From positions 1 to 64,000 of the IMG/VR virus record IMGVR_UViG_3300049855_000239: DNA of 64,000 nucleotides; one strand, 5' to 3'. The translations under genes were made by a program, and so were the position numbers. Positions 2,855 through 15,992 of this stretch are shown here, piece by piece; within the stretch, counting starts at the first letter, position 1; each line of letters opens with the position of its first letter. The DNA comes from a virus. The notes beneath the pieces are model-generated. The model did not search any database, had not been told where the DNA came from, and was given only the letters and a program-made list of their open reading frames with translations.

Positions 2855-2949
2855 ATGCGTGTCGTTAGCAGAAACTATAAACGTGGCATTTTCCAGCACC
2901 TATACGCAAGCTTCGTTCCTCAGCTATGCGCATAGCTTTAGCGTTAGCA
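2855..2949 (-). repeat. Two degenerate attC-like right halves in tandem
   Basis: GTGTCGTTAGCAGAAACTAT (2861-2880) and TTTAGCGTTAGCAGAAACTA (2937-2956) are near-identical core-plus-flank copies about 75 bp apart with remnants of site loops between them. The minus-strand frame 2708-2899 crosses this region and is mostly site sequence, so I do not call it as a gene. The block looks like the debris of one or two deleted cassettes. Confidence 0.45.
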
Positions 2950-3184: not shown

Positions 3185-3232
3185 AATTTAATTAGTTATT
3201 TTTTTACATAGTCATGAATAAATAATAGTGTT

Positions 3233-3286
3233 CTGCTAACATCTAATTCTGAATTAATGTGAGTTCGTGTTACTAGTGCGTTCATA
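3233..3286 (-). repeat. Degenerate attC-like site
   Basis: The left core CTGCTAAC (3233-3240) matches the far end of its cassette (GTTAGCAGAA at 2943). The right core is poor (GTTCATA, 3280-3286) and the arms hardly pair, so this site has probably decayed or been replaced. Confidence 0.35.
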
Positions 3287-3287
3287 A

Positions 3288-3536
3288 TTACCAAGGAGTT
3301 TCGGGTTGATCTTCATAAATTACTATTGGATTTGGATCTAAAATTATATGCTGTTTTAGTTGTTTTACAGACCACCACTCGCCATTTAATCGGTATCGTT
3401 TAGGTGGCTGAATCTTTACTTCATGCCACCCGTACGATCTTTTTTTTCTAGTAAATGGCTTTTTGTAAATCTTTTTATCACTTCCAACTATATAATCTTT
3501 TAGCGATTCAAGTTTAAATTTCCATTTGCTATTCAT
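3288..3536 (-). CDS. Basic cassette protein, unknown function
   Basis: 82 aa, rich in Lys/Arg and Trp in its first half (KKPFTRKKRSYGWHEV) with an acidic C-terminal tail (YEDQPETPW). No domain recognised. It is one of the few cassette genes with its own clear promoter, only 5 bp upstream of the ATG, so expression should not depend on read-through from the array promoter. Confidence 0.65.
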   Translation of the reverse strand: MNSKWKFKLESLKDYIVGSDKKIYKKPFTRKKRSYGWHEVKIQPPKRYRLNGEWWSVKQLKQHIILDPNPIVIYEDQPETPW

Positions 3537-3540
3537 AATA

Positions 3541-3571
3541 CAAATATACCACTTTTAACCATACATGCAAA
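3541..3571 (-). promoter_or_regulatory. Bacteroidota-type promoter for the 3288-3536 gene
   Basis: Read on the minus strand: TTTG (3568-3571), a 19-nt spacer, then TATATTTG (3541-3548), an exact TAnnTTTG. Transcription would start at or just inside the start codon at 3536, giving a nearly leaderless mRNA. Confidence 0.7.
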
Positions 3572-3602
3572 TAGATTTAGCACTTTTGGTATTTTTTTAT
3601 TC

Positions 3603-3648
3603 GTCAACACTAATGTTATGGGCAACCGTAGAAGCCTAGCGGTCGCCC
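3603..3648 (-). repeat. Minimal/degenerate core pair plus a hairpin at a cassette 3' end
   Basis: TCAAC (3603-3607) and GTTATGG (3615-3621) are only seven bases apart, so the usual arms are missing. GTTATGGGC pairs with GCCCATAAC at 4157-4165 across the next cassette. Directly adjacent, GGGCAACCG (3620-3628) and CGGTCGCCC (3640-3648) form a hairpin just after the Tad2-like gene that could act as its terminator. Confidence 0.45.
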
Positions 3649-3654
3649 AGTTTA

Positions 3655-4098
3655 CTAGTCGAGAATGCACCAATCTTCCGAAATACAATCGTTGACACTT
3701 GGAACCCATGTACTGACAGTTCCGTCTACATTTTTGATTGCCAAATAAGGATTGTAGTAAACTTTTCCATCTTCATCTGCAATAGACTTACCTATATCGG
3801 TAGAGAATGGATAACGATTTGCAGGGATAAAGTAAACAAACATACCTTTTCCGTTCCAACCTTTTCTAGCAACTTTTTTACCAAGTTTCAACGCTTCCAA
3901 CGCTAATCCAAACGTTAATTCACTTATGTTTCTATATGCTTTTTCAAACACATCTTTTGGACTCCATGAAATATAACCATCTTCATAAACGACTTTGTAG
4001 CCTTCTTCTCCAGCGACAACCTTTCCCGATTCATCGGAGAACTCTTTCGCATCCATTGGAGTTGCGACAATTAATTTGACACCAATATACTTTTCCAT
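3655..4098 (-). CDS. tad2: Tad2-like anti-Thoeris protein (DUF2829 domain)
   Basis: 147 aa. Residues about 62-147 carry the DUF2829 pattern: FGLALEALKLGKKVARKGW, then FVYFIPA, then NPYLAIKNVDGTVSTWVPS and the terminal SEDWCILD. In Tad2, a known member, this fold forms tetramers that sequester the cyclic-ADP-ribose-type signal made by Thoeris ThsB, so the effector is never activated. Residues 1-60 (EGYKVVYEDGYISWSPKDVFEKAYR) are a separate small domain often fused in phage proteins. Domain assignment is from motif memory; the anti-Thoeris role is inferred from the family. It fills one complete cassette (3615-4165). Confidence 0.75.
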   Translation of the reverse strand: MEKYIGVKLIVATPMDAKEFSDESGKVVAGEEGYKVVYEDGYISWSPKDVFEKAYRNISELTFGLALEALKLGKKVARKGWNGKGMFVYFIPANRYPFSTDIGKSIADEDGKVYYNPYLAIKNVDGTVSTWVPSVNDCISEDWCILD

Positions 4099-4157
4099 TT
4101 TATTTGTTGGGTTTTATAACTCCGCCCAGAAGTTTATCGGTTGACAAAAAACGGCAG

Positions 4158-4290
4158 CCCATAACACTATATTTATGTAACAGGTGGCGTTTTTGGTTAT
4201 TTTCACTTTATTGCTCCCAGCTTATGTTTTGGCGGTGGATAGCTACGTCTTCGCTCATGCCACCTATTGCATAAATACCTAGCGTTAGCG
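4158..4290 (-). repeat. attC-like recombination site
   Basis: Left core CCCATAAC (4158-4165), right core GTTAGCG (4284-4290). The arms ATATTTATGTAACAGGTGGC and GCCACCTATTGCATAAAT pair with few mismatches. The loop contains GGCGGTGGATAGC and CGTCTTCGCTC, shared with other sites. The spacer is 3 nt on the left and 7 nt on the right, the usual asymmetry of this family. Confidence 0.85.
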
Positions 4291-4296
4291 GAAAGT

Positions 4297-4509
4297 CTAA
4301 GAAGTGACTGGTAAATCGACCGACATTGTAAAAATCGAGAATTTTCCGTTTTCTGAATGACTTTCAGCTTCTTCTCTATTTTCAAAAACTGGTAGAAATC
4401 CGTAAAGACCGCCTAGTTTATCCGAACAAGGAAGTCCAGTAATCGGATTTGTATATTCTATCATGGTTGATAATTTTGATACCATGAAAAGCTCTTTTTT
4501 GTTTGACAT
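4297..4509 (-). CDS. Small cassette protein
   Basis: 70 aa. The segment GFLPVFENREEAESHSENGKF suggests a small alpha/beta fold of a type seen in phage accessory proteins, but I cannot name it. A start at the internal Met-9 (MVSKLST) is possible. It shares its cassette with the upstream membrane-protein gene, only two bases away. Confidence 0.6.
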   Translation of the reverse strand: MSNKKELFMVSKLSTMIEYTNPITGLPCSDKLGGLYGFLPVFENREEAESHSENGKFSIFTMSVDLPVTS

Positions 4510-4511
4510 AG

Positions 4512-4712
4512 TTAAACGATTTGAGATTCAATTATAGGTTCTTTTGTTTCATGTGGTGGATATCCACGAAACGACACCATTATCATTTTGAAGAAATGAA
4601 AGAAAATTCTAACGATTCCATTAACAACGAAATAAAGAACCATTGCGATAATGCAGTACGAGCCAACGAAGACCCAAAAACTGCTAACTGTAAATTTTAA
4701 TAATTCTAACAT
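4512..4712 (-). CDS. Small membrane protein in cassette
   Basis: 66 aa. A long hydrophobic N-terminal region (about residues 8-45, likely two helices) is followed by a short polar tail (YPPHETKEPIIESQIV). First gene of the two-gene cassette 4284-4755; its start lies 36 bp from the core site. Function unknown. Confidence 0.6.
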   Translation of the reverse strand: MLELLKFTVSSFWVFVGSYCIIAMVLYFVVNGIVRIFFHFFKMIMVSFRGYPPHETKEPIIESQIV

Positions 4713-4747
4713 TTTGATAAATTTATACGTGAAGAAAAAAGACTATT

Positions 4748-4878
4748 CCGCTAACACTGTGCTTATGAAATTTTGGGGCTTTACTGTTTTGGATGGCGTT
4801 TTGCCCTCACGTAGTTCCCAGCGGTGGAGACTTTCGTCTCCATAAATCCCCAAATTTCAGAAGCACTTAGCGTTAGCA
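4748..4878 (-). repeat. attC-like recombination site
   Basis: Left core CCGCTAAC (4748-4755), right core GTTAGCA (4872-4878). The arms GTGCTTATGAAATTTTGGGG and CCCCAAATTTCAGAAGCAC pair almost perfectly. The loop contains AGCGGTGGAGACTTTCGTCT. The left core flank pairs with 4284-4293 across the cassette, not with the right core. Confidence 0.9.
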
Positions 4879-4884
4879 GTAAAT

Positions 4885-5256
4885 TTAAGAGAGTCCAAAT
4901 ACTCTCATTAGATTACTGAATAATAATTCCTTTATTGTATCAAAATTTTCTTGCCCTTTTTTTAATGATAAATATTCTGGAGTCCAAAATCCATTATTAT
5001 TACCGTCATAAACTCTTATTTCTGTTTGTGAATATGCTATTTCAAAACATAAATTACGGTCTGGCCTCATACCATAGCTTCCAAAAACGATAGAAACCTG
5101 TTGCCCAAAATAAGAACCATCTCCATCATAGCTTATATCGCACGTTTCTAATTTAGGAAGCATTTTACTAAACTCTTCTATAAAATCAGGGTCATTACAC
5201 GGCTTTATGCCATCTATTTGTTTCCAGTTACTGATGTATTCACTTAATATTTTCAT
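4885..5256 (-). CDS. Cassette protein, unknown function
   Basis: 123 aa, acidic, with a strand-rich middle (CDISYDGDGSYFGQQVSIVFGS) and EIAYSQTEIRVYDGNNNGFW. It fills cassette 4872-5296 alone, the stop being 7 bp from the core. The pattern resembles small immunity-type or host-takeover proteins, but no family can be claimed. Confidence 0.65.
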   Translation of the reverse strand: MKILSEYISNWKQIDGIKPCNDPDFIEEFSKMLPKLETCDISYDGDGSYFGQQVSIVFGSYGMRPDRNLCFEIAYSQTEIRVYDGNNNGFWTPEYLSLKKGQENFDTIKELLFSNLMRVFGLS

Positions 5257-5288
5257 TTTTGAATAATTTAACGGTTAAAAAAAATCTA

Positions 5289-5420
5289 CTGCTAACACTG
5301 TATTTTCGCATTTTCGGGGCTTGCTGGTAGTTCTAGCTTCACACCGTTAGGCTAGTTCACCAGCGGGGGATACAGCCGTCTTCGTCACTCCCGAAATTGC
5401 GTAAATACCGTTCGTTAGGT
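5289..5420 (-). repeat. attC-like recombination site
   Basis: Left core CTGCTAAC (5289-5296), right core GTTAGGT (5414-5420). The arms GTATTTTCGCATTTTCGGG and CCCGAAATTGCGTAAATAC pair well. An extra inner stem (CTGGTAGTTCTAGC / GCTAGTTCACCAG) extends the hairpin. Confidence 0.85.
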
Positions 5421-5426
5421 GCAATG

Positions 5427-6571
5427 CTAAGAAGGTTCTTGGATATAGCTAAGTATATGAGCAATCACATCTACTGTCCATCCATCACCCAAAAGACAAG
5501 CCGCTTCATTACGTTTTAATATGCTTGTGTACCCTTCCGGTACCGTTTGAAGCCTTTCAAGTTCTGTTTGTGTGAAATATCTCAAATCGCCATCCTGAAA
5601 TACAAAATACTCGTTATTTCGTAAAAGGCAATTAGATTTATCTTTCATCGAACGTCCTCTCCTAGTCTCGCTTGTTGGATAGCTTAAATCTACGGCTTCA
5701 TTATTTGCAATGTCTACAAAGCCTATATTGGTAGCTTCTTTTACTCTCAAATAGGTTTCCTTGTCTTTTGTAATTAATGTCGTAAAGCCACTATTAAAAA
5801 CCGATGCGCCATTTTATGTTGTTGTTTCAATGGTCGGCTTTCGCTTTCCAAAATGCAACGGCTCTTTTCCATTTGAACAAATCCACTTTCCAAAATAGAT
5901 TGTAGTTTTATTTTCTTGTCTTTTGGTTCAGGTATTCTACAATATCTAAATCCAAATAGGTCGAATGATTCCGGACCTATGTTTGTCCAATAAAATCTAT
6001 TCCTCATTTGAGCCGAAACCAATTCACTATTTATGTTCACTGGATATGTTCCCATGTACTGGCTTATCAGTTCCATATTTTTATCGGTCATGGCTACATT
6101 TTCCAATAGAAAATATTTTGGCTTTAGTGCTTTTAGAAGTCTCAAATACTCAAAAAACAATCCTGATTTTTCGCCTTGCAATCCTTTGCGTTCTTTGTTT
6201 GCTAAACTAAAATCTTGGCATGGGCTACCTCCAATTAATAAATCGATCTTTGGTAGGTTTTCAGGTTGTATATTTCTTATGTCTCCTAGCTGTATTGTAT
6301 TCGGGTAGTTGTGTTGTGTTACTTTTATTGCGTGTGCTTTTATCTCACTTGCATAGTATTGTCCGTACTTTATTCCGGCTTTATTTAAGGCAATTTGTCC
6401 GCAACTCATACCATCAAACAAAGAAAGCACTGCACCTAACACAAGCTTTGAATTATGCAAGGGTGTACTGGTTATTTGGGCTTCACACATATCAGATAAT
6501 TTTCCATAGTTTATACTTTTTGGCGGTTCAGCCTTGCACAATACAAAGCCATTGTCGTTAGTAGTAATCAT
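5427..6571 (-). pseudogene. C5-cytosine DNA methyltransferase, split by a frameshift
   Basis: The N-terminal frame (5774-6571) has motif I LFDGMSCG (residues 51-58), motif IV with catalytic Cys in GGSPCQ (117-119) and motif VI LLENV (157-159). The C-terminal frame (stop 5427) carries the target-recognition remainder, RYFTQTELERLQTVPEGY, and motif IX/X GDGWTVDVIAHIL. One extra T in the run near 5795-5800 separates the frames: removing it joins HRF to NSGFTTLITKDKE. Either the gene is inactivated or the homopolymer was miscalled. The intact enzyme would be about 380 aa, the family's usual length, and would protect phage DNA from host restriction. It overlaps the next upstream gene by ATGA. Confidence 0.8.
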
Positions 6572-6819
6572 AAAACGTCCTCGGCATAGCCATACTTTTG
6601 AAGGTAAGGTAATAGCTTTTTGAATTGCTTTTCAGTAATTACATCTGACTTAAATAGATTGGTCATGTAGTTTCTATTTTTGCCTATTTCCCTTGAAAAT
6701 TCAGACAATGAAATAGCTGGATGCAATTGGAAGAAATTATATACGCTTTGAAATGTACGTAGGTGATCAAATATTTTATTTCCCATTTTATGCCCAATAA
6801 AAGTTAATAGCTTGTCCAT
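6568..6819 (-). CDS. Small HTH-like protein upstream of the methyltransferase
   Basis: 83 aa. LSEFSREIGKNRNYMTNLFKS reads as a helix-turn-helix (residues about 39-59), followed by FKKLLPYLQKYGY. It is coupled to the methyltransferase by an ATGA overlap, so it may control its expression or bind DNA with it. Inference only. Confidence 0.55.
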   Translation of the reverse strand: MDKLLTFIGHKMGNKIFDHLRTFQSVYNFFQLHPAISLSEFSREIGKNRNYMTNLFKSDVITEKQFKKLLPYLQKYGYAEDVL

Positions 6820-6943
6820 CTTTGCCTTTTCGAAGTTTTTTGTTTAGTAGGCGTTTTATTTTCTTTTTTAACTTCCTGTTTTTTCGCTTGTTTTTTGTAA
6901 GCTTACATTGTTCGCATGTGCAAATAAATATTTTACAAGGCAT
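6788..6943 (-). CDS. Very basic Cys-containing small protein
   Basis: 51 aa. It begins MPCKIFICTCEQCKLTKNKR, with four Cys (C-x4-C-x-C-x2-C) followed by a long Lys/Arg-rich stretch. A metal-binding knuckle with a nucleic-acid-binding tail is plausible. It overlaps the 3' end of the upstream gene (stop 6933) and the start of the downstream gene (6819), which supports it as an operon member. Confidence 0.5.
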   Translation of the reverse strand: MPCKIFICTCEQCKLTKNKRKNRKLKKKIKRLLNKKLRKGKDGQAINFYWA

Positions 6944-7232
6944 GTTTTTTGTTTTTTAGGTTATCTAGCCTTATTCTTGCGCTACCTTTTAGTGTTGCAT
7001 TTATTGTCCTAGCTTCTTCTTCTAATCTTAAAACAACAGGTTCAAGCTCATTTATTTGCTCATCTATCGTTTTGTCTGTTTTCAAAAGCAAATCTTTAGC
7101 CTTAATACATGCCAAAGCTCCTCGTGTCCATAATTTACTTTCAAAATTTTGACTTATTATTCCTTGCTTTTCAAGTTCAAGTAAGAGGATTTGCTGCCTC
7201 TTACCTGATCCTTTTGTTATAGAGTTTCGCAT
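6933..7232 (-). CDS. Helical small protein of the methyltransferase cluster
   Basis: 99 aa, almost wholly helical (QQILLLELEKQGIISQNF; EQINELEPVVLRLEEEA), basic at both ends. No family recognised. Overlaps the upstream gene by 16 bases. Confidence 0.6.
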   Translation of the reverse strand: MRNSITKGSGKRQQILLLELEKQGIISQNFESKLWTRGALACIKAKDLLLKTDKTIDEQINELEPVVLRLEEEARTINATLKGSARIRLDNLKNKKHAL

Positions 7233-7411
7233 AGTTCTATAAATTCCTTTTCTGGCAATCTGTTCATTAAAATTTCCAATGCAGCATCAGAAATTAAATC
7301 AGCACCATCAGATAAATTATTAGCTAGTTTTTTTATTTCCATAATCAAATCGGAAGTAGAAAGAGCGTTTAATTTGCTTATTGCGATATTTTTAAATTCT
7401 TGCGTTGTCAT
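7217..7411 (-). CDS. First gene of the methyltransferase cluster
   Basis: 64 aa from the start MTTQEFKN at 7411. This start is chosen because a promoter -7 box lies at 7433-7440, inside the longer frame to 7513, which would place the promoter within the gene. Helical and acidic; not recognised. Confidence 0.6.
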   Translation of the reverse strand: MTTQEFKNIAISKLNALSTSDLIMEIKKLANNLSDGADLISDAALEILMNRLPEKEFIELCETL

Positions 7412-7432
7412 GTCCTTGTCGTTTTGTTGAAT

Positions 7433-7495
7433 CAAAGGTAACATAAAAATTGCAAACTGCAATATATTATTATCACAATTTGCAATATTTTTTAG
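7433..7495 (-). promoter_or_regulatory. Promoter with palindromic operator for the methyltransferase cluster
   Basis: The minus-strand -7 box TACCTTTG (7433-7440) lies 21 nt upstream of the 7411 start. Just upstream is the perfect palindrome ATTGCAaacTGCAAT (about 7450-7464), with a second half-site ATTTGCAAT near 7488-7496. The arrangement suggests a repressor-controlled promoter; the HTH-like gene 6568-6819 is a possible partner. Confidence 0.5.
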
Positions 7496-7526
7496 TCTAC
7501 CATCAGCGGACAAAGAAAATGACTAC

Positions 7527-7579
7527 TACTAACACTGTATATACGCCATTAAAACGGGCGTATATACCTAGCGTTAGGC
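7527..7579 (-). repeat. Minimal attC-like site (53 bp)
   Basis: TACTAAC (7527-7533), spacer ACT, perfect 11-bp stem GTATATACGCC / GGCGTATATAC with an 8-nt loop, spacer CTAGC, then GTTAGGC (7573-7579). The right core is the exact integron R-box consensus. It is the shortest and cleanest site in the window, close to the minimum length of known attC sites. Confidence 0.9.
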
Positions 7580-7774
7580 GATATTTTTAGAAGCCTTAAA
7601 CCGTACTAACAACTGACTAAATATCATGTCTGTATCGGTTGTTTTAACTGGAACGCTCATATGAAATGAATTACCTCCACTATGACACATTTTACTTAAC
7701 TCCTCGGTAGCAATTTTTACCAGTTCTTCATCTGGCATTTCTGCCTGTAATTGTCTAAATTCTTCTATGCTCAT
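7574..7774 (-). CDS. Small acidic cassette protein
   Basis: 66 aa, beginning MSIEEFRQLQAEMPDEELVK. Its TAA stop is the first three bases after the G of the core GTTAGGC, as in many integron cassettes. Cassette 7573-7819 holds only this gene. Function unknown. Confidence 0.6.
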   Translation of the reverse strand: MSIEEFRQLQAEMPDEELVKIATEELSKMCHSGGNSFHMSVPVKTTDTDMIFSQLLVRFKASKNIA

Positions 7775-7812
7775 TTTGATATTGGTTACGGTTTGATAAA
7801 TAAATAAAACAA

Positions 7813-7943
7813 TCGCCTAACATGATATTTAGTCATTTAAGGGCGTTCTGGGATCGGTTCTGTACTCGCATTAGTTGGCGTCCCACGGCGGATAGTTTCG
7901 TCTCTGTCACTCCCTTAAAAGCCCAAATACATGTTCGTTAGCT
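7813..7943 (-). repeat. attC-like recombination site
   Basis: Left core GCCTAAC (7813-7819), an exact RYYYAAC; right core GTTAGCT (7937-7943). The arms ATATTTAGTCATTTAAGGG and CCCTTAAAAGCCCAAATAC pair. It shares most of its arms and loop with the site at 17061-17190. Confidence 0.88.
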
Positions 7944-8016
7944 GCAACTATAATAATCACAACAACTCGACATTTATGTCAAATATACTATCTTTATACT
8001 TTATAATACTAAAGAT

Positions 8017-8862
8017 ATGCTAATAAATTACGGAGGAGAATTTCCTTTCAAAATGACCGACTTGTATGACAAGCTTGAACTTAGTCCGTCACAGTATAAT
8101 AGATGGACTAAAGCCAATCTACTAGAGTCATTTTATATAGAACTTGACTATGAGGCGGTACTCGACATGATGTCGAGTACCCCAAAAGGCGGTAAACTAA
8201 GACAAGAATACAGACTAACAAGACGTACTGCAGAAGAACTTGCGCTTCTATCTCGAACACAAAAGGGGAAAGAACTAAGAAAGTGGCTACTTGACTTAAA
8301 GGACAAAGTTGAGTCTAATGAATTATTAACATTAGAACAAGTCTATTTCTTAATTGACTTAGTTAATGCGTTTTCTTTTGTTGCACATCAAAAAGCAATT
8401 GAAGAATCACATAAACAATCATTTATAAACAACTATATTGATGAATACGGCAAAGTAAATATATCTGAAATATGTTCTAAGTTTAATTATTTAAGAAATG
8501 AGATTTTGGATATTTCGCCAGACATAATAAAAGAACGGATATTAAGATTTTATGATGAGGAAAAGCGACTTGTAAATAAGAAAACGAAACGAGAAGTACT
8601 TGCTGTTATTGATAAGTTTTCTTTAGTAGGAAATGCAGCATTTGACTTCATGGCATCTATTCAAAAACCATTAGACACAGCATCTAAAGTTGGAGAGATG
8701 GTAAAAGGAATGGCAACTAGATTAAATATTGAGATTAGAGACAAAAATGAGGCAGATCTTTTTAATGATGAGATTAAACTAAATCCAACAATCATGCAGA
8801 AAGTAAATCCATTTATAGGCAAGCCAAAACTTGATCCTAAAATCACAAAAAAACTAAAATAG
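8017..8862 (+). CDS. AntA/AntB-like phage antirepressor, reverse-oriented cassette
   Basis: 281 aa, plus strand, opposite to all other array genes. Residues 20-105 (SQYNRWTKANLLESFYIELDYE, then YRLTRRTAEELALLSRTQKGKE) match the AntA/AntB pattern, a DNA- or repressor-binding domain of antirepressors. The C-terminal 180 residues are helical and unrecognised. It fills cassette 7937-8873, whose ends GTTAGCTGCA and TGCAGCTAAC are complementary. About 75 bp upstream of the start are free for its own promoter (a TATCTTTA-like box near 7990); array read-through could not express it. Confidence 0.7.
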   Translation: MLINYGGEFPFKMTDLYDKLELSPSQYNRWTKANLLESFYIELDYEAVLDMMSSTPKGGKLRQEYRLTRRTAEELALLSRTQKGKELRKWLLDLKDKVESNELLTLEQVYFLIDLVNAFSFVAHQKAIEESHKQSFINNYIDEYGKVNISEICSKFNYLRNEILDISPDIIKERILRFYDEEKRLVNKKTKREVLAVIDKFSLVGNAAFDFMASIQKPLDTASKVGEMVKGMATRLNIEIRDKNEADLFNDEIKLNPTIMQKVNPFIGKPKLDPKITKKLK

Positions 8863-8866
8863 CTGC

Positions 8867-8996
8867 AGCTAACACAGTATTTAAGAAACCTAGGGCTATA
8901 TGAATTATTATTCATTATTCACATTTCATTAGTTTTTAGCGGTGGAGAATTTCGTCTCCGTCAATCCCTAAGTTTCTTAAATACATTGCGTTAGCG
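8867..8996 (-). repeat. attC-like recombination site
   Basis: Left core AGCTAAC (8867-8873), right core GTTAGCG (8990-8996). The arms GTATTTAAGAAACCTAGGG and CCCTAAGTTTCTTAAATAC pair nearly throughout. The loop contains AGCGGTGGAGAATTTCGTCT. Confidence 0.9.
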
Positions 8997-9557
8997 GAAA
9001 CCGTGAGGACATTCAACACGATCGAAACTGTAAACCCAAACCCACGGATTTAGATCCCAACTATCATTTCCATTAATTTTTTGCCAAAGCGACCTATAAG
9101 ACCTTTGGGCATTTGAACACCATACCGATGGGTCTTTATTGGTATAGCATACAAAATTTCTTGGACTAAATCTGCAATTCTCGACACCTTCGCTTATCGC
9201 ATCTATTTCTGAAATGTCGTTTAGCCTTTCGACTCTAACATTTGTAACTTTTAGAAATAACCGACAAGCCTCTTTTGGCATAAATAGGCTTGGTTTCCAT
9301 TTAGCAGACTCACAGCCAGATTTTATATATTCTTGTCTTAATTCTTCTCCTGAACTCCCTGTATCTGCCCTGTAATGCCAATAATTACGATGATACGTAT
9401 GTGTTTCTCTGACCCAAATAATATCACCAATTTTGACTGGCGATTTCGATAAAGTTTCATCCCAATTTCCTAACGGAACATTATCTTTCAAAGTTCGTCT
9501 TGTTTGGGTCTTGCTTCCATTTAATAATGCTCTGACCATCAGAGTTGAAAAAAGCAT
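8991..9557 (-). CDS. ASCH-domain protein
   Basis: 188 aa from MLFSTLMVRALLNGSKTQTR at 9557. This is the normal start of the family ('ILFSTPMVxAILxGxKTQTRR'); the longer frame to 9674 runs back through the attC-like site. WVRETH and the later NPWVWVYSF are also typical. ASCH folds are PUA-like, and some members bind RNA or hydrolyse modified nucleosides, but the role of this phage branch is not established. The stop codon lies in the core site. Cassette 8990-9582 has complementary ends. Confidence 0.8.
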   Translation of the reverse strand: MLFSTLMVRALLNGSKTQTRRTLKDNVPLGNWDETLSKSPVKIGDIIWVRETHTYHRNYWHYRADTGSSGEELRQEYIKSGCESAKWKPSLFMPKEACRLFLKVTNVRVERLNDISEIDAISEGVENCRFSPRNFVCYTNKDPSVWCSNAQRSYRSLWQKINGNDSWDLNPWVWVYSFDRVECPHGFR

Positions 9558-9575
9558 CGGTCTAAAAACGGCATC

Positions 9576-9706
9576 CGCTAACACTGTATTTGATAAATCA
9601 GGGGCGGTATTGGCTTTGGTTGCTGTATTCATTTTAGTTTCTATTTTTACGGTGGAGAGTTCCGCCTCCGTCACTCCCTAGTTTTCTTGAACACCTGTCG
9701 TTATAT
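9576..9706 (-). repeat. attC-like recombination site, apparently hybrid
   Basis: Left core CGCTAAC (9576-9582), right core GTTATAT (9700-9706). The left half is identical over 60 nt to the site at 11334-11464, but the right half is different, so its arms pair poorly (GTATTTGATAAATCAGGGG against a right arm ending CTTGAACACC). It looks like a half-site exchange between two sites. Confidence 0.75.
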
Positions 9707-9735
9707 GATAGTTTAAAATAGCAGCACAAACATGT

Positions 9736-10185
9736 TTAATACTCATCAGGTGCTTTGTTTTTCCAACTACTTGAACTATTCTGCATACGCAAACCTCTTA
9801 AATATCTTGAAGCACATGCAAGTTCACACATCAAAATCCACGCTCTTTCGTTTGGAGAAGAAAAATTCTTTCGTCTTTTCATCTTGTTTTTTTCTTCCTC
9901 TGATAATGCTTCAAAAGCGACACATTCATCGTATCTACGTTCTAGTTCTTTCCAGCAGTCAATATATGGCATCCATTGCTTATGTTGAATCATTACCTTT
10001 TCAATTTGAGGTCTTAAATCAGGCAATTTTCTGAGCATCCTTACACATCGACCAACATCAGAAATATCATGCGGTACATCACATTCCCCAGTTGGTATTC
10101 CTGTAATAGCAGCAAACATTGTTTTTGAAGAAATGCCAGTATCTCTACTTGCTAACCATTCCATCCATTCTTTTTTAACTTCCAT
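9736..10185 (-). CDS. Conserved-looking phage protein in cassette
   Basis: 149 aa. WMEWLASRDTGISSKTMFAAITG followed by DISDVGRCVRMLRKLPDLRPQI has the look of a widespread small phage protein of unknown role ('GDTGxSSxTMxAxxTG'). The long acidic/basic helix in the middle (ERRYDECVAFEALSEEEKNK) may be a coiled coil. Sole gene of cassette 9700-10229. Confidence 0.65.
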   Translation of the reverse strand: MEVKKEWMEWLASRDTGISSKTMFAAITGIPTGECDVPHDISDVGRCVRMLRKLPDLRPQIEKVMIQHKQWMPYIDCWKELERRYDECVAFEALSEEEKNKMKRRKNFSSPNERAWILMCELACASRYLRGLRMQNSSSSWKNKAPDEY

Positions 10186-10222
10186 ATTATTAATTTATTG
10201 CGTTGTAAATAAAAAACCAATC

Positions 10223-10309
10223 ATATAACACTATGTTTCTGATATGGGCGATAAAGTACTGGTAGTTCGGAATTTCCGAATGCCCACATCAGAAACATTT
10301 ACGTTATGC
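10223..10309 (-). repeat. Short attC-like site (87 bp)
   Basis: ATATAAC (10223-10229) and GTTATGC (10303-10309). The stem ATGTTTCTGATATGGGCG pairs with CCCACATCAGAAACAT, and the apical hairpin TTCGGAATTTCCGAA is a perfect palindrome. It is a compact variant with few unpaired bases. Confidence 0.85.
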
Positions 10310-10315
10310 ACAATG

Positions 10316-10582
10316 CTATAATGACGGCAATCCGAGCGAAGAACGTACTTTAGCTTCTGCCAGATTTTTGATAAAATCGCTATCTGAAAGAATCTCTTTT
10401 GCTTTTGCTGCAATCATTTCCTTGAAGTTTAATTCTTGCATTGCCTTATCTAGCCCTTCCCGTAATGCACCTTCTACACACCAATCTAATGCACTTTCAA
10501 AAGCATTTGCCTTATTGGACATAAAAGACTTTTGAAAGTATTCTGTCAATGCCCTTTGAATGTCAGGCATATGAGTTTGCAT
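10316..10582 (-). CDS. Helical cassette protein
   Basis: 88 aa, all-helical (LTEYFQKSFMSNKANAFESAL; EMIAAKAKEILSDSDFIKNLAEA). A second Met at residue 5 is an alternative start. Function unknown. The far end of its cassette lacks a proper left core (see 10600-10677). Confidence 0.6.
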   Translation of the reverse strand: MQTHMPDIQRALTEYFQKSFMSNKANAFESALDWCVEGALREGLDKAMQELNFKEMIAAKAKEILSDSDFIKNLAEAKVRSSLGLPSL

Positions 10583-10599
10583 TATATTAGCTTCATTTG

Positions 10600-10677
10600 C
10601 ATTAGTTTACTTTTTGTACGGTTGATACATTCGGCTTCGTTACTCCCGAAAAAGCGTGAATAAGTGTCTCGTTAGGC
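10600..10677 (-). repeat. Right half of an attC-like site, left half lost
   Basis: From the loop (TACGGTTGATACATTCGGC) to the right core GTTAGGC (10671-10677) the sequence follows the family, but the left arm and left core are absent. The gene 10316-10582 is joined directly to the loop. This looks like a deletion that removed half a site. Confidence 0.6.
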
Positions 10678-10683
10678 GAAATA

Positions 10684-10848
10684 TTAAAAATCACCATCCT
10701 CTAACCCACGAATAACGAAACAAACGAAAGAATAGATTATTGACAAGATGCCACAAAAAAACAATACTTTCAAATGCCCTGTACTTGAAACATTAAAGCA
10801 TATAATTAACCCTAAGCCGATAATGAATAATTTGTCAATGATTTTCAT
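10684..10848 (-). CDS. Small membrane protein in cassette
   Basis: 54 aa from MKIIDKLFIIG at 10848 (a Met seven codons upstream is also possible). Two hydrophobic stretches (about residues 5-21 and 28-46) end in the acidic tail RGLEDGDF. Cassette 10671-10878 has complementary ends GTTAGGCGAA / TTCGCCTAAC. Confidence 0.55.
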   Translation of the reverse strand: MKIIDKLFIIGLGLIICFNVSSTGHLKVLFFCGILSIIYSFVCFVIRGLEDGDF

Positions 10849-10871
10849 GTTGATAAAATTAAAATACATTC

Positions 10872-11002
10872 GCCTAACACAGTACTTATAAAACTGTGGG
10901 CTTTTTTGGTTATTGTTACTTTACTGCGCTCCACTCGCTTTTTTGCGGTGGATAGTGGCGTGGTCTTAAATCCCACAGCTTTAAAAGTACGTGCCGTTAC
11001 CT
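10872..11002 (-). repeat. attC-like recombination site
   Basis: Left core GCCTAAC (10872-10878, exact consensus), right core GTTACCT (10996-11002). The arms GTACTTATAAAACTGTGGG and CCCACAGCTTTAAAAGTAC pair. A close relative of the site at 15319-15449. Confidence 0.88.
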
Positions 11003-11003
11003 G

Positions 11004-11390
11004 CTATTTTGCAGACGAGTACCATTCAAATTCCTCATCCATTAATTGATAAGTTGTTTTCGCTTTACCACATTGCAAATCTTTTAAATAAGCAACGCAT
11101 CTTTGTTTAGGTGTCGGTTGTTGATAATTTTCATTTTTACCATCATTTACAGGATAAACCATATAGGTTGTTGCAATATTTTCAAACCAATCAAAAAGCT
11201 TTCCACCACCTAAATCAAATAAATGTCCGAATAAGCAATTTTTACCATCTTTTGTTTTTACTATATCTGTACACCAACTTTCCTCCGTTGTATTTTCCAT
11301 GTAAGTAATAATCACATCTAAAGAAAAAACAGCAGGTAACACTGTATTTGATAAATCAGGGGCGGTATTGGCTTTGGTTGCTGTATTCAT
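11004..11390 (-). CDS. Cassette protein with attC-supplied start
   Basis: Up to 128 aa. The first 17 residues (MNTATKANTAPDLSNTV) are encoded by the attC-like site; the cassette then contributes FSLDVIITYMENTTEESW and KNCLFGHLFDLGGG. A start at MENTT (11300) would cut into what looks like the first helix, so I keep the longer frame, with doubt. The pattern 'helix - W - CLxGxL' recalls DUF6197-type proteins, but weakly. Function unknown. Confidence 0.55.
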   Translation of the reverse strand: MNTATKANTAPDLSNTVLPAVFSLDVIITYMENTTEESWCTDIVKTKDGKNCLFGHLFDLGGGKLFDWFENIATTYMVYPVNDGKNENYQQPTPKQRCVAYLKDLQCGKAKTTYQLMDEEFEWYSSAK

Positions 11391-11464
11391 TTTAGTTATT
11401 GTTTTTACGGTAGATAAATTCGGCTTCGAAAAGCCCCTGTTTTCTCAAATACTTAGCGTTAGCT
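11334..11464 (-). repeat. attC-like recombination site with in-frame ATG
   Basis: Left core AGGTAAC (11334-11340), right core GTTAGCT (11458-11464). The left half is identical for 60 nt to the site at 9576. The loop has TACGGTAGATAAATTCGGC. On the minus strand an ATG preceded by an A-rich tract (11388-11390) opens a frame through the left core into the neighbouring cassette. Confidence 0.85.
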
Positions 11465-11465
11465 G

Positions 11466-11801
11466 CTATACTAACTGACGCCAAGTTTTACCACTATTGA
11501 ATATTGGGCTTTTTTCGTCAACTAAATTAAGCTTACCAATTAGTTCATGTGCTTGTTGTTTTGATATTTTGCATTTGCCATAATTATCGGAATCATAAAC
11601 TTTTACAAGAGTATATTCATCATTCCACTGGCTTATACTCCAGAAATTATTATCCCACAGTTTTACACATTTATCAATATCGACTTTGCAAGATACTGTA
11701 TTTGGAAATGTCAAAAGCACCTCTGTTAAAATAACAGTACAGCAGCTAACACTATGTTCTCGAACTTGTGGCGTTTTTTCAATCTTGATATTATTTTTCA
11801 T
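11466..11801 (-). CDS. Cassette protein with attC-supplied start
   Basis: 111 aa from ATG 11801, which lies in the loop of the site 11744-11875 after a good A-rich leader. The cassette-encoded part starts CCTVILTEVLLTFPNTVS and has no Met of its own, so the site must provide the start unless GTG/TTG is used. Later text KCKISKQQAHELIGKLNLVDEK is helical. Unknown function. Confidence 0.55.
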   Translation of the reverse strand: MKNNIKIEKTPQVREHSVSCCTVILTEVLLTFPNTVSCKVDIDKCVKLWDNNFWSISQWNDEYTLVKVYDSDNYGKCKISKQQAHELIGKLNLVDEKSPIFNSGKTWRQLV

Positions 11802-11875
11802 GTCATTTACATTTTTACGGGTGATACTTTCGTGGACTTTACATGCCACAACTTCGTGAACATTTAGCGTTAGTT
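11744..11875 (-). repeat. attC-like recombination site with in-frame ATG
   Basis: Left core AGCTAAC (11744-11750), right core GTTAGTT (11869-11875). The arms ATGTTCTCGAACTTGTGGC and GCCACAACTTCGTGAACAT pair with few mismatches. The ATG at 11799-11801 is in its loop on the minus strand. Confidence 0.85.
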
Positions 11876-12286
11876 TCAATCTTGTAAAACGAGTTCTTCG
11901 CCAACAAGAGCAAAATATAAGTTCTGTAACTGGTGTACAAATTCAATCAATCTTAAACATGTACCTCGAAACCAAAATTCATTTCCAATAAAATATATGT
12001 CATGATTTTCATCAAAATACCACATCTCGAAATCTTCTGAAATAAATCCAAACCGTTTCTTCCAGTTATTATCTAATGATATAGGGATAATTTCAACCAA
12101 ATTACCATCCTTTATATGATATTCAACATGAAGGATGTTTTCTGGATGAGCAAATATATGAACTTCATCATCTCTAATTTCGACAACATTAAAATGACAG
12201 TTAATATATTCTTCCTCTTCTAATTCTTTCTTAACTTCTTCGTTTATGAAGACAATATTCCCAAATCTTAACTCATTTACTTTCAT
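11876..12286 (-). CDS. Common Bacteroidota phage protein of unknown function
   Basis: 136 aa. It starts MKVNELRFGNIVF and ends VHQLQNLYFALVGEELV, with PISLDNNWKKRFGF in the middle. I recall this layout from many small phage and prophage proteins of Bacteroidota, none with a known role. It is the cassette nearest the plus-strand island; the matching left end of its cassette is not intact. Confidence 0.65.
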   Translation of the reverse strand: MKVNELRFGNIVFINEEVKKELEEEEYINCHFNVVEIRDDEVHIFAHPENILHVEYHIKDGNLVEIIPISLDNNWKKRFGFISEDFEMWYFDENHDIYFIGNEFWFRGTCLRLIEFVHQLQNLYFALVGEELVLQD

Positions 12287-12317
12287 GGTTTTATGGTTAC
12301 GGTTGACAAAAAAAAGA

Positions 12318-12371
12318 CTAAAACTACGGTGGATTTATTCGGCTTCGAAAAGCCCCTGTTTTCTCAAATAC
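12318..12371 (-). repeat. Truncated attC-like site at the island junction
   Basis: TACGGTGGATTTATTCGGC, then AAGCCCCTGTTTTCTCAAAT, equals the loop-right arm of the site at 11334, but the right core that should follow is missing. The 97-bp inverted repeat begins directly in its place. The left half is also missing. Confidence 0.7.
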
Positions 12372-12468
12372 TCTTTAAATACAGTGCAAATGTAGCATTT
12401 AAATAATCTAAAAAAAATATTATTTTGATTTTTTATTTATCTTTTTAGTGCTTACATTTGTTCCACTA
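12372..12468. repeat. 97-bp inverted repeat, copy 1 (divergent promoter)
   Basis: Identical, in opposite orientation, to 17890-17986. It carries a -7 box on each strand: TACATTTG on plus (12453-12460) toward the island genes and TACATTTG on minus (12387-12394) toward the cassette array. The perfect identity in an otherwise variable region indicates recent duplication or gene conversion. Confidence 0.9.
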
Positions 12469-12495
12469 CATTTGTGGCATATTAAGACAACGATT

Positions 12496-12642
12496 ATGAC
12501 AGTAAAATTTAAAACAGTCCCTACAACCTTATTGGTTATTTTTTTAATTGACCACATAAGCCAATCATTTACAAGTCACGTTACTAATTATCCTTATTGG
12601 GTTGTTTTGATTTTGTTTATGATATATTCAAAATTTGACTAA
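12496..12642 (+). CDS. Small membrane protein of the plus-strand island
   Basis: 48 aa starting MTVKFKTVPTT at 12496, 36 nt after the -7 box in copy 1. Two hydrophobic stretches (TTLLVIFLIDHI; YWVVLILFMIY). First gene behind the promoter. Function unknown. Confidence 0.55.
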   Translation: MTVKFKTVPTTLLVIFLIDHISQSFTSHVTNYPYWVVLILFMIYSKFD

Positions 12643-12650
12643 ATAAGATT

Positions 12651-13016
12651 ATGAATTTACAACTATCATTAATTAATAGGTGGTTTATAAAAACCGAAAT
12701 AGGCGAGAAATTAGAGGACTATCGGGAACTAACGCCTTATTGGTATGCTAGATTATGTTTGTATGATGGCAAAAAACAACCTAAAAGTTTTTGGGAATTT
12801 GCGCCAAGAACTAGCTTTAATTTTGATTCTAATAAAGTTACGTTTAAGAAATTCGAAGCAAACATTATGACATTAGGCTATCCTAAATCAACCGACACAG
12901 ATCGAATACTAAAATATAAACACGCTGGAATTGAAATAAGAACTGGTAATCCTAATTGGGGCGCAGAAGAAGGTAAATTATACTTTGTAATCAAGCATGG
13001 AGAAAAGATACGGTAA
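12651..13016 (+). CDS. ASCH/PUA-like protein
   Basis: 121 aa. LINRWFIKTEIGEKLEDYRELTPYW is the start typical of ASCH-related phage proteins ('WFDxIxSGEKxEEYREIKPYW'). Later IEIRTGNPNWGA and KLYFVIKHG fit the second half of the fold. It differs from the ASCH protein at 8991. Role unknown; RNA or nucleotide binding is the family expectation. Confidence 0.65.
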   Translation: MNLQLSLINRWFIKTEIGEKLEDYRELTPYWYARLCLYDGKKQPKSFWEFAPRTSFNFDSNKVTFKKFEANIMTLGYPKSTDTDRILKYKHAGIEIRTGNPNWGAEEGKLYFVIKHGEKIR

Positions 13017-13635
13017 TTGCGTATGTCACAATAGATATTCTAGTTTGAATGCTAAAGGTCTATGTCCAGAAGGCGCACGTGAGCGACATAAAAAGAGTGC
13101 CGAAAGTAAAGGATTTAAAGTAAAAGAATATGGAATTGATAGAAACACCAAAACAGAGGCTATTCAGGATAAAGAGTTTAGTTTTGAAGGAAATGGAGTT
13201 AAGGGAGAAACTACTTTCAAAAAGGCCAAAATCAACCGTGTTTCTGAAAACAAGGCAAAAGAAAACGCAGAATTGGCAAGACTTAAAAAGGCAAAGATAT
13301 TAGAGTTAGGCGAAAAGTGCGAAATGTGTCCTAGACATGGAAGTGTTGATTTATTTCACATCATCGGAGTAGGGGATAAAACCCACGCTACTAATCCAAA
13401 AAACTTACTTCTTTCATGTCGCTGGTGCCATCTTATTTGGGGTGCAAACGACTTCGAAAAGATACTCAAATTCAATAATTTTGATGATATAATGAACCGA
13501 TTGAAAGATTTGGATTCTGGTAAATATTGGAAGTTTAGGCACAAGATAGAAAAGCATGTAATTGAAAAGTATTTCGAGACAAAAGACAAAACAGATATGA
13601 ATAGGCTAGGTATAAAATTTGTGAGTCCATTATGA
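12997..13635 (+). CDS. HNH-type zinc endonuclease / NinG-like recombination protein
   Basis: 212 aa. The C-terminal half has C-x2-C (KCEMCP), DLFHIIGVG, and CRWCH, an HNH/treble-clef arrangement like NinG/Rap, which trims branched DNA in phage recombination. An N-terminal Cys pair (GNCVC) and a basic helical linker precede it. It overlaps the upstream gene's 3' end by 20 bases. Confidence 0.65.
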   Translation: MEKRYGNCVCHNRYSSLNAKGLCPEGARERHKKSAESKGFKVKEYGIDRNTKTEAIQDKEFSFEGNGVKGETTFKKAKINRVSENKAKENAELARLKKAKILELGEKCEMCPRHGSVDLFHIIGVGDKTHATNPKNLLLSCRWCHLIWGANDFEKILKFNNFDDIMNRLKDLDSGKYWKFRHKIEKHVIEKYFETKDKTDMNRLGIKFVSPL

Positions 13636-13958
13636 ACATTATTTTCATTTGTACTGCAAATAGGGATAGAAGCAGAACCGAAGAAATATATTTTCAAAAC
13701 AAATATCCTGAACATCGTTTTCGATCTGCTGGTATTAACAAGTATTTGAGCGAACGACACGGAGGTATTCACGTAAAAGCCTACATGTTAGATATTGCTG
13801 ACCGTATTATTTGCGCTGAACATATTCATTCTGATTGGATAGTACGAAACATAAACAAAAAGTACCTAGATAAAATATAAGTATTAGAACTGGCCGATAC
13901 TGGTACTTTTATGAGCAAAAGTTTAATAGATCGATTAGAAAGTAAGTTTAAAATATGA
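13632..13958 (+). pseudogene. Low-molecular-weight tyrosine-phosphatase-like protein with in-frame stop
   Basis: MNIIFICTANRDRSRTEE has the P-loop C-x5-R (CTANRDR) of LMW phosphatases, followed by RFRSAGIN and LDIADRIICAE, typical of short phage/Bacteroidota members. Translation stops at TAA 13878-13880 after 82 aa. The frame then continues VLELADTGTFMSKSLIDRL to a TGA at 13956-13958 that overlaps the next gene's ATG (ATGA). That overlap marks the original gene end, so the TAA is a premature stop removing the last 25 residues. Confidence 0.7.
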
Positions 13959-14305
13959 ACCACCCAGAAAGCGACTTACAAGCAAATTGTATAAAATGGT
14001 TTAGATACCAATACCCGCAACTAAAACTATGTTTGTTTAATGTGCCAAATGGATCAAAAAGAAGCAAGTCTCAACAAGCTATACTTAAAAAGGAAGGTGC
14101 TATTTCTGGAGTTTCTGACATTATTTTATTGGTGCCAAATAGCGAGTTCAATTCTTTATGTTTAGAAGCTAAGATTAAGCCTAATAAACAATCAGAATCG
14201 CAAATTGAATTCGAAAAGGCCGTTACTAATTTTGGTAATTGTTATAAGGTATTTTACTCATTTGAAGAGTTTAGAAGTATTGTTACTAGTTATTTATCTT
14301 CTTAG
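13955..14305 (+). CDS. VRR-NUC family nuclease
   Basis: 116 aa, the usual length of a stand-alone VRR-NUC domain (PD-(D/E)XK fold). It shows E5 and Q9 in HPESDLQ, NVPNGSKR, GVSDIILL (metal-binding Asp), LEAKIKPN (E-x-K) and SQIEFEKAVTNFG. Members cleave branched or damaged DNA, and some act as Holliday resolvases. The start is the ATG overlapping the phosphatase frame's TGA. Confidence 0.85.
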   Translation: MNHPESDLQANCIKWFRYQYPQLKLCLFNVPNGSKRSKSQQAILKKEGAISGVSDIILLVPNSEFNSLCLEAKIKPNKQSESQIEFEKAVTNFGNCYKVFYSFEEFRSIVTSYLSS

Positions 14306-14352
14306 TTTATACTTGCTTTAGATTTGAAGTTCATGTTTAAGAAATAGTATTA

Positions 14353-14382
14353 CCACAGCTTTATAAGTACGTGCCGTTATAA
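14353..14382 (-). repeat. Right half of an attC-like site at the island's other junction
   Basis: CCACAGCTTTATAAGTACG, then TGCC, then the core GTTATAA (14376-14382), matches the right arm of the site at 15319-15449. The left arm and core are gone, replaced by the end of the island after the VRR-NUC gene. Confidence 0.7.
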
Positions 14383-14388
14383 GCCATT

Positions 14389-14760
14389 TTAAGAAGCAGA
14401 TTCATAATAAAGATTTTTACCTCCTAATTGATAGTAGCAATCAAGAAGGGATTTTTTGGCTTCTTCTTTTATCCATTCTGTCTTGTGACCTAGATATGCT
14501 ACATCAATATCTATCCATAATATTTCGGGTAGTTTAGCCCATATATTTTCATTATCTAATAACTCTTTTGCAAAACGTCCCATTCCATCCCAACTTTTAG
14601 TTTTTTCGTTGGTTTTTAATTCATCTGCACTTTTTATAGGTAATTCCAAATCCTCGCCTATATGGTTTGCTACTTTATAAATCTCAAACACTTCTTGATG
14701 TATTTGAATACAGTTTGACCTCATTGTGTCAAAATCAATTATTGGTTTTTTACTTTCCAT
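14389..14760 (-). CDS. Helical cassette protein, unknown function
   Basis: 123 aa, acidic and helical (IHQEVFEIYKVANHIGEDLEL; AKELLDNENIWAKLPEILWID). Sole gene of cassette 14376-14813 with complementary ends GTTATAAGCC / GGCTTATAAC. No family recognised. Confidence 0.65.
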   Translation of the reverse strand: MESKKPIIDFDTMRSNCIQIHQEVFEIYKVANHIGEDLELPIKSADELKTNEKTKSWDGMGRFAKELLDNENIWAKLPEILWIDIDVAYLGHKTEWIKEEAKKSLLDCYYQLGGKNLYYESAS

Positions 14761-14806
14761 GTTTTAATTAAATTAAATTGTTATAATTAGTGCAAATAAA
14801 AACGGC

Positions 14807-14936
14807 TTATAACGTTGTATTTTCGCACTTAATGGCATTCTGGTTTACATCACTTCACTTGCATTCATTCAGGCTACTACAGTGGATAAATTCGACTCTG
14901 TTCATCCATTAAATGCGTAAATAGTCTTCGTTAGGT
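14807..14936 (-). repeat. attC-like recombination site
   Basis: Left core TTATAAC (14807-14813), right core GTTAGGT (14930-14936). The arms GTATTTTCGCACTTAATGG and CCATTAAATGCGTAAATA pair. The loop has CAGTGGATAAATTCGACTC. Confidence 0.88.
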
Positions 14937-14942
14937 GAAAAA

Positions 14943-15320
14943 CTAAGAGTCAAGGCAAGTTCTAACCTTTGCTCTTAATTCAGCTCCTTTTGGGTCGTTT
15001 TCTAAATGTGAACTGACTTCTTCGAGTAAGTCAATCATTTCCTTTATCCATTTTGGATGTTCTAAAATTTCAGATTCTTTGTCTTGATAATTGTCTAATA
15101 AAATGCCCAAATTTAACGGAACTATAAAAGATCTGTCAGGTATTTTTTTAGCCACATCAGCAATTTCTTCATTTGCTCGTGTGGTATCATATCCATCATT
15201 TTCTTTTATAATTTCTTCAAGTGAGTTAAGATATTCTCTTACTTCGTTCAGTTCTTTTTCGGTGCATTTTGCGACCGTTAATTGTTTTACTACAGTTGGC
15301 ATAATCAAGAAGTTCTTCAC
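14943..15320 (-). CDS. Coiled-coil-like cassette protein
   Basis: 125 aa (119 if it starts at MPTVVKQLT, 15302). Highly helical: EKELNEVREYLNSLEEIIKE, later MIDLLEEVSSHLENDPKGAE. Sole gene of cassette 14930-15325; the start lies close to the core. Unknown function. Confidence 0.6.
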   Translation of the reverse strand: MKNFLIMPTVVKQLTVAKCTEKELNEVREYLNSLEEIIKENDGYDTTRANEEIADVAKKIPDRSFIVPLNLGILLDNYQDKESEILEHPKWIKEMIDLLEEVSSHLENDPKGAELRAKVRTCLDS

Positions 15321-15449
15321 CTAACACAGTACTTATAAAACTGTGGGTTTTTTGGGTTGTTGTTACATTTTTGCGCTCCACTCACTTTTTGGCGGTGGAT
15401 AGTGGCGTGGTCATTACTCCCACAGCTTTATAAGTACGTGCCGTTAGCG
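15319..15449 (-). repeat. attC-like recombination site
   Basis: Left core ACCTAAC (15319-15325, exact RYYYAAC), right core GTTAGCG (15443-15449). The arms GTACTTATAAAACTGTGGG and CCCACAGCTTTATAAGTAC are near perfect. The loop contains GGCGGTGGATAGTGGCGTGG, shared with the site at 10872. Confidence 0.9.
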
Positions 15450-15455
15450 GAAACC

Positions 15456-15719
15456 TTAAAACCTTCTAGGCATTTTAAGGTAATCGCAACAAAAGTTTGA
15501 TACAACTTCAAATGTTGATTGAAGTTTGCTTTTGCCAATTTCATTTGGTTTTTGAGCAACAACACCGCTTCCATCATCAAATTTGGTTATCATTATTCCT
15601 CCACATGTAATACTGAATTGATATTCCTCCCCTTTTTCTTTGTCAGTAGGGAGGTTTTCTATTTTTTCAATTACTGGCATCAGTAAATCCATACTTTCAT
15701 TAAAAGCAAGTTTGCCCAT
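15456..15719 (-). CDS. Small cassette protein of a common phage type
   Basis: 87 aa. LAFNESMDLLMPVIEKIENL, a Gly-rich strand pair (SITCGGIMITKFDDGSG) and a C-terminal helix give a layout seen in many small phage proteins of unknown role. Its 5' cassette end is not conserved; non-cassette sequence begins near 15730. Confidence 0.6.
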   Translation of the reverse strand: MGKLAFNESMDLLMPVIEKIENLPTDKEKGEEYQFSITCGGIMITKFDDGSGVVAQKPNEIGKSKLQSTFEVVSNFCCDYLKMPRRF

Positions 15720-15848
15720 GTGTCCATTTCTGGTTAACGCTTTGAATCAAATAGCAAGTGGCTTTTATTTATTCCCATCCTATTCAATCGGTTCATTTTA
15801 ATTGAGACTCCAATCTTTACATTGGCTCAAATAAAGGCTAAAAATGAC

Positions 15849-15889
15849 AAAAGCCTAGATCTCGGGGGGAGCAATCTAGGCTTTTATTT
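15849..15889. terminator. Strong hairpin terminator, probably bidirectional
   Basis: AAAAGCCTAGAT (15849-15860) and ATCTAGGCTTTT (15874-15885) form a perfect 12-bp stem with a G-rich 13-nt loop, followed by TTTA on plus and preceded by A-rich sequence. It lies in the 270-bp gene-free stretch before the 15993 gene and would insulate that gene from the array. Confidence 0.75.
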
Positions 15890-15992
15890 AAAAAACTGGC
15901 TTGGTATTCACTTCTGCCATTATCTTTAATTGTGCTAATTATTCCCCCGAACAATCACAGTGTAAAATTACAAATAATTTCTAAATTGCAAT

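Follow-up and report, generated by a model that had tools for sequence, protein, structure and literature searches.

A fixed non-Watson-Crick pair in the cassette ends of a phage array and of Flavobacteriaceae suggests an integron kind that marks strands by wobble pairs

In an integron-like cassette array of a phage, the two ends of each cassette are complementary up to position 10, are mismatched at position 11 and pair again over the following bases. The same mark is found in arrays of Flavobacteriaceae located beside an unusual recombinase. This suggests that a little-known type of integron uses wobble pairs to mark its strands. In our interpretation, to which we give about even chances, the two ends of a cassette form the outer (R) arm of an integron attC site; sites of this type are common in Flavobacteriaceae, and their wobble/mismatch set would favour one strand. 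A central problem of integron biology is the choice of one strand at a site that is almost a palindrome, and the current answer is that extrahelical bases are contacted by the integrase. The sites described here represent a large natural set with fixed wobble or mismatch pairs, linked in bacteria to a recombinase without the IntI-specific insertion. If our interpretation is true, they provide a second solution to integron strand choice, integron-like arrays are common in one family of a phylum in which integron software reported very few, and such arrays represent one means by which phages carry exchangeable cargo.

The window, i.e. the whole stretch of DNA that was analysed, comprises 64,000 bases of a virus record of 72,698 bases. 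It was scanned with the covariance model R1, whose source alignment contains 32 sites from the window, six viral contigs, a Polaribacter contig and a Cytophagaceae contig and shows a hairpin covariation score of 0.514, compared with 0.10-0.23 for slid partners. The scan revealed 15 full-length matches (E ≤ 1.8e-8) and one partial match, all on the minus strand, in an array whose bounds, judged from R1 matches and cassette ends, are approximately 2460 and 17187 and which overruns the stretch given in the first-pass annotation. The attC-like sites, which mostly measure about 117 nt between the R boxes, are located at 2646-2771 (85.3 bits), 4162-4287 (99.8 bits), 4752-4875 (96.9 bits), 5293-5417 (88.6 bits), 6437-6560 (59.3 bits), 7818-7940 (81.0 bits), 8870-8993 (108.5 bits), 10875-10999 (104.3 bits), 11337-11461 (111.3 bits), 11747-11872 (99.2 bits), 14810-14933 (87.8 bits), 15322-15446 (104.7 bits) and 17064-17187 (84.8 bits). 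The array also holds, likewise on the minus strand, a short site at 7530-7576 (43.3 bits), in the fold of which the terminal loop region is nearly absent, a chimeric site at 9579-9703 (82.3 bits), of which one half is about identical to that of 11337-11461 and the arms are unpaired in the fold, a shorter site recognized by its fold at 10226-10306 with 73 nt between the R boxes, and a truncated site at 10539-10662 (34.0 bits, the partial match). Each site was oriented by its spacers, of which one is longer (6-7 nt) than the other (4 nt), and the strand so defined, hereafter S, is also the one on which R1 scores best. In the window S is the minus strand, and most cassette genes lie on it as well.

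The array shows the features by which a CALIN is recognized, namely at least two attC sites with R'', L'', L' and R' boxes folding into a hairpin, and an R' complementary to its own R'' and differing from cassette to cassette. No match to the sites of the array was found in Rfam. Since the phage record of 72,698 bp, itself perhaps a fragment, contains no PF00589 match and hence shows neither an integron integrase nor another tyrosine recombinase, the phage would borrow a recombinase of its host. The cargo of the cassettes likely includes an anti-defence gene. A stretch of 97 nt at 12372-12468 is a perfect inverted copy of 17890-17986 and carries TAnnTTTG-like boxes on both strands; judged from its sequence, it may serve the array as a divergent promoter.

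The pairing of the cassette ends was analysed for the 16 window cassettes with both ends, after the right ends had been reverse-complemented. The two ends of a given cassette match in all cases at positions 1-9 (100%), in 88% at position 10 and in 0 of 16 at position 11; after this mismatch, they match in 75, 75, 81 and 88% at positions 12-15, and the background is reached from position 16. Own ends match in 94 of 96 cells at positions 5-10 and in 51 of 64 at positions 12-15, while the maxima in 20,000 permutations of the ends were 73 and 45, respectively, and none of the 20,000 reached the observed total for either block, which rules out chance matches as the source of the end pairing and bears out the position-11 mismatch with resumed pairing that the first-pass annotation had described. 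Because the start of one cassette and the end of another match far less at positions 5-7, 9, 10 and 12-14, the matching at these positions is cassette-specific. Position 8 is hardly so (88% match across cassettes), and position 15 is uninformative in the window, with both ends being mostly T and 88% matching in own or crossed pairings. Together with the attC hairpin model, this cassette-specific end complementarity supports the earlier assignment to an integron-type cassette array.

At position 11, the left base is A in all of the 22 left ends of the window, and the right base, reverse-complemented (n = 17), is G in 11, T in four, C in one and A in one. Since the base on each side is fixed, position 11 is mismatched in every pairing, own or crossed; it consists of two conserved bases unable to form a Watson-Crick pair and is not a variable pair disrupted by chance. 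In the cassette 11458-11750, for example, the plus strand at 11458-11472 reads GTTAGCTGCT-A-TACT, where the fixed A (T on the minus strand) occupies position 11, and the opposite end, read on the minus strand at 11736-11750, is GTTAGCTGCT-G-TACT with G as base 11. The corresponding plus-strand ends are GTTAGCAGTA-A-ATTT at 4872-4886 (cassette 4872-5296), GTTAGCTGCA-A-CTAT at 7937-7951 (cassette 7937-8873), GTTATAAGCC-A-TTTT at 14376-14390 (cassette 14376-14813) and GTTAGGTGAA-A-AACT at 14930-14944 (cassette 14930-15325), and these five examples had already been quoted, exactly as they stand in the DNA. In four cassettes (4284, 7573, 9700 and 10671), and also at 2864/2943, pairing beyond the mismatch is either offset by one base or broken up.

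R1 matches 222 of the 299 Flavobacteriaceae genomes (the family of the Polaribacter genome) and none of the 61 Vibrio genomes, where it has to be considered that related genomes share history and that counts of genomes and cassettes are thus non-independent events. Two cassette subsets were picked by their match at positions 5-7 only: a chromosomal set of 84 cassettes with matched R box from 26 loci, and a viral set of 17 cassettes from seven records including the window. Pattern scans of viral contigs, both of which also caught many unrelated stretches, had yielded 59 loci, two of them with arrays, in a first scan and at least four more in a second. The chromosomal cassettes match in 96, 90 and 74% at positions 8-10, in 0 of 84 at position 11 and in 89, 94 and 80% at positions 12-14, followed by background; the pairing ends because T-rich stretches are located on S at both ends from about position 15-16. 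Among the 84, the bases at position 11 are G/T in 74 cassettes and C/T in the other 10, so that the T side is invariant (84/84), and only one of the 17 viral cassettes matches at this position. The first-pass annotation had named the vanishing of the mismatch once relatives are aligned as the outcome that would speak against it, and this did not occur.

A control of 35 Vibrio cassettes, which was drawn from other arrays because too few sites were obtained from Rheinheimera, Shewanella and the Vibrio contig examined first, matches in 94, 89, 66, 63 and 51% at positions 8-12, with background from position 13; neither a fixed position 11 nor a block at 12-15 was found in these 35. For most gene cassettes, the pairing of the R boxes has been reported to reach 9-11 consecutive nucleotides (Bouvier et al. 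2009, PMC2727003). The earlier statement that canonical attC sites are matched over only about 7 bp is therefore wrong, considering this report and the pairing through position 12 in the Vibrio control. The extension of the ends is in itself ordinary; the array stands out by its fixed position 11 together with another paired block at positions 12-14/15.

On S, T on the 5' side stands opposite G on the 3' side at position 11, which is a wobble, and on the complement A stands opposite C, which is a mismatch. This polarity stays with S in phages and chromosomes alike. The genes run mostly with S in the six viral contigs and the window and against it in the Cytophagaceae contig and 19 chromosomal loci, and they are evenly mixed in one locus (L346). 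Mainly because the polarity of position 11 is independent of gene direction, we place its role in recombination. A gene-end signal, i.e. a stop or start codon context, was considered and rejected, since gene direction flips between phage and chromosome and the polarity does not.

A recombinase of Polaribacter (L297) has 389 residues and matches the models of XerA (219.5 bits, cut-off 220 bits) and IntI (TIGR02249; 207.5 bits, cut-off 265 bits). An alignment with three IntI proteins showed that the IntI insertion is missing from it and that about 95 extra residues are present at its N terminus; these have no match in Pfam. The IntI-specific insertion is absent from all aligned homologues of the recombinase, which places them outside the integron integrases as defined by this insertion. 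Among 20 loci that were chosen from a list of recombinases blind to attC, all of the 52 R1 matches, distributed over 15 loci, are located 3' of the recombinase gene and on the opposite strand; in 15 of these 20 unbiased loci, the recombinase gene therefore adjoins an array. Per genome, the presence of the recombinase and of attC sites is associated with an odds ratio of about 8.8, and many genomes have one of the two alone, for which reason the linkage at the loci is the better evidence. In four loci (L351, L354, L404 and L407), the first cassette begins 45-79 bp past the end of the recombinase match, and the interval contains an AT-rich, partly palindromic stretch that is a candidate attI. 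No recombinase was found in the viral contigs using a query of close relatives. In Bacteroidetes proper, IntegronFinder 2.0 reported one complete integron, that of Salinibacter ruber (PMC9024848), and we found no description of the present flavobacterial platform in the open-access papers searched.

Non-Watson-Crick pairs are fixed in the inner (L) arm as well. In 167 chromosomal sites, counted from the first pair past the spacer as set by the site finder, which demanded ungapped arms and thus under-represents bulged sites, G faces T at positions 6 (81%) and 11 (90%) and faces A at position 16 (57%), with G on the 5' side. These G.T pairs are less frequent in the L arms of the phages (29% and 39%). 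In the folding calculation, S forms a more stable hairpin than its complement in 84 of 84 chromosomal sites, by 5.0 kcal/mol on average, and in 16 of 17 viral sites. After position 11 had been set to Watson-Crick, both strands were stabilised and the strand difference still amounted to 4.1 kcal/mol; position 11 hence contributes only about 0.9 of the 5.0 kcal/mol, and the remainder likely comes from the fixed G.T pairs of the L arm. In the Vibrio sites, the bottom strand is the less stable one, by 1.7 kcal/mol on average relative to the gene-sense strand, so that a stability bias of the S type is, as computed here, not a general property of attC sites. The first-pass annotation had proposed the fixed mispair as a strand-choice signal and suggested folding of the site as a check: the pair is indeed polar (G.T versus A.C) and S is the more stable strand, but position 11 accounts for only a small part of this difference. 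A role of the fixed mispair in strand choice is plausible. Folding energy need not matter for it, because strand choice at classical attC sites is based on protein contact with extrahelical bases.

In the mechanism that we propose, the end and the start of a free circular cassette would flank the attC core, and all of these parts would fold into one long hairpin, the R arm of which would consist of 10 Watson-Crick pairs, one fixed non-Watson-Crick pair and three to four further pairs. As the paired extension is complete only in the circular cassette, selection on it is expected at insertion and not at the junctions within an array. In chromosomal sites, both recombinase-binding arms carry a polar mark at about equal distance (in the L arm at positions 6 and 11), and S is, according to the calculation, stabler than its complement through G.T pairs and other features. 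Known integrons recombine the bottom strand of attC, and in the chromosomal arrays S, being opposite to the genes, is its counterpart. The wobble/mismatch set might replace the extrahelical bases and favour both the folding of one strand and the loading of the recombinase on it, and the linked recombinase might contact positions 12-15 through its additional N-terminal domain. Counting against a strand mark, six of the 17 right ends of the window lack G and form T.T or other pairs, which are no wobble.

The constancy of the bases at position 11 of the chromosomal cassettes (G in 74 and T in 84 of 84, with C in 10 of 84 as the sole other start base) exceeds what a purely structural mismatch requires and points to a second, rather unlikely explanation, in which the recombinase, perhaps with the extra domain of the linked protein, reads G/T as sequence and the lack of pairing is a by-product without any strand signal. 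Viral sites, however, tolerate T, C or A on the G side, and the L arm repeats this non-Watson-Crick geometry at its own positions 6 and 11, which suggests that geometry matters. We regard it as quite improbable that the extension reflects how cassettes are formed, or the arm length that any tyrosine recombinase needs, with position 11 at the edge of the protein and of no special role: classical cassettes also pair past the R box, over 9-11 nt (PMC2727003) and to position 12 in Vibrio, but an unconstrained edge would vary, whereas position 11 is fixed and cassette-specific pairing resumes beyond it. Pairing of the 5' and 3' ends of a cassette transcript in the mRNA, for which the sense RNA of the phage cassettes would carry a G.U wobble at position 11, is very improbable and, like a gene-end signal, disfavoured, because the G/T polarity tracks the asymmetry of the attC site and the reversed chromosomal genes would give A.C in sense RNA with the DNA-strand polarity unchanged.

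Beyond a strand mark in the cassette ends, we tentatively propose, with somewhat less than even confidence, a separate integron lineage common to Flavobacteriaceae and their phages, which would use an XerA-like recombinase without the IntI insertion and with an added N-terminal domain, would specify strand choice by fixed G.T/A.C pairs in both arms and not by extrahelical bases, and would have its cassette genes reversed in phages.

Compared with classical attC sites (Vibrio VCR, class 1 cassettes), the sites share AAC/GTT R boxes, a folded hairpin, an unpaired central spacer and a cassette-specific pairing of the R boxes, which here as there extends over 7 nt and beyond (PMC2727003). They differ in the fixed G.T/A.C at position 11 followed by further pairing at 12-14/15, and in the G.T pairs in register at fixed positions of the L arm. 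Position 11 is a mispair in register, unlike the extrahelical base of classical attC; no consistent extrahelical base was found in R1, and the arms align in register in the sites of the finder, which took ungapped arms only and would miss bulged sites. The closest viral counterpart is the CALIN of Polaribacter phage P12002L, likewise an attC cluster without integrase in a flavobacterial phage, of which IntI1 is reported to have recombined one of two tested attC sites (Qi et al. 2023, PMC9892861). Two of its sites match R1 (E = 1.5e-6 and 1.7e-5), compared with at least 15 sites in the window, and the parts of the published account considered here do not mention end pairing or position 11. With chromosomal integrons that encode IntI, the flavobacterial platform shares a recombinase gene adjoining the array and a candidate attI before the first cassette, whereas its recombinase lacks the IntI-specific insertion, has an additional domain at the N terminus, does not reach the IntI cut-off and is encoded in the same orientation as the cassette genes.

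Among the cassette genes of the window, the one at 3655-4098 (minus strand) encodes a Tad2-like (anti-Thoeris) domain, matched at E 9e-24, and a C5 cytosine methyltransferase gene, whose coding sequence is divided between two reading frames, lies within a single cassette at 5427-6571 (minus strand). The AntA-type antirepressor cassette gene at 8017-8862 (plus strand) is oriented opposite to most other cassette genes.

The sites at 9579-9703 and 11337-11461 have a near-identical half in common. The former is a chimera, the arms of which do not pair with each other, and it looks as if it were a product of homologous recombination. The array is broken up by a plus-strand gene block at 12651-14305; beside this block, at about 12325-12371, one half of an attC site is present as a truncated copy. 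A perfect 97-nt inverted repeat is located at 12372-12468 and 17890-17986, with the copies 5.4 kb apart, and contains TAnnTTTG-like boxes on both strands; it could possibly represent a duplicated divergent promoter or else the ends of an invertible segment.

In many Flavobacteriaceae, an attC array and a recombinase occur as one chromosomal platform (loci L335-L354, L396-L410 and L423-L442), which is a separate finding. The recombinase of this platform lacks the IntI insertion. Relative to the attC asymmetry, the phage cassette genes, both in the window (2460-17187) and in six viral contigs with related arrays (L051, L058, L062, L067, L074 and L097), mostly run in the direction opposite to that of the chromosomal ones.
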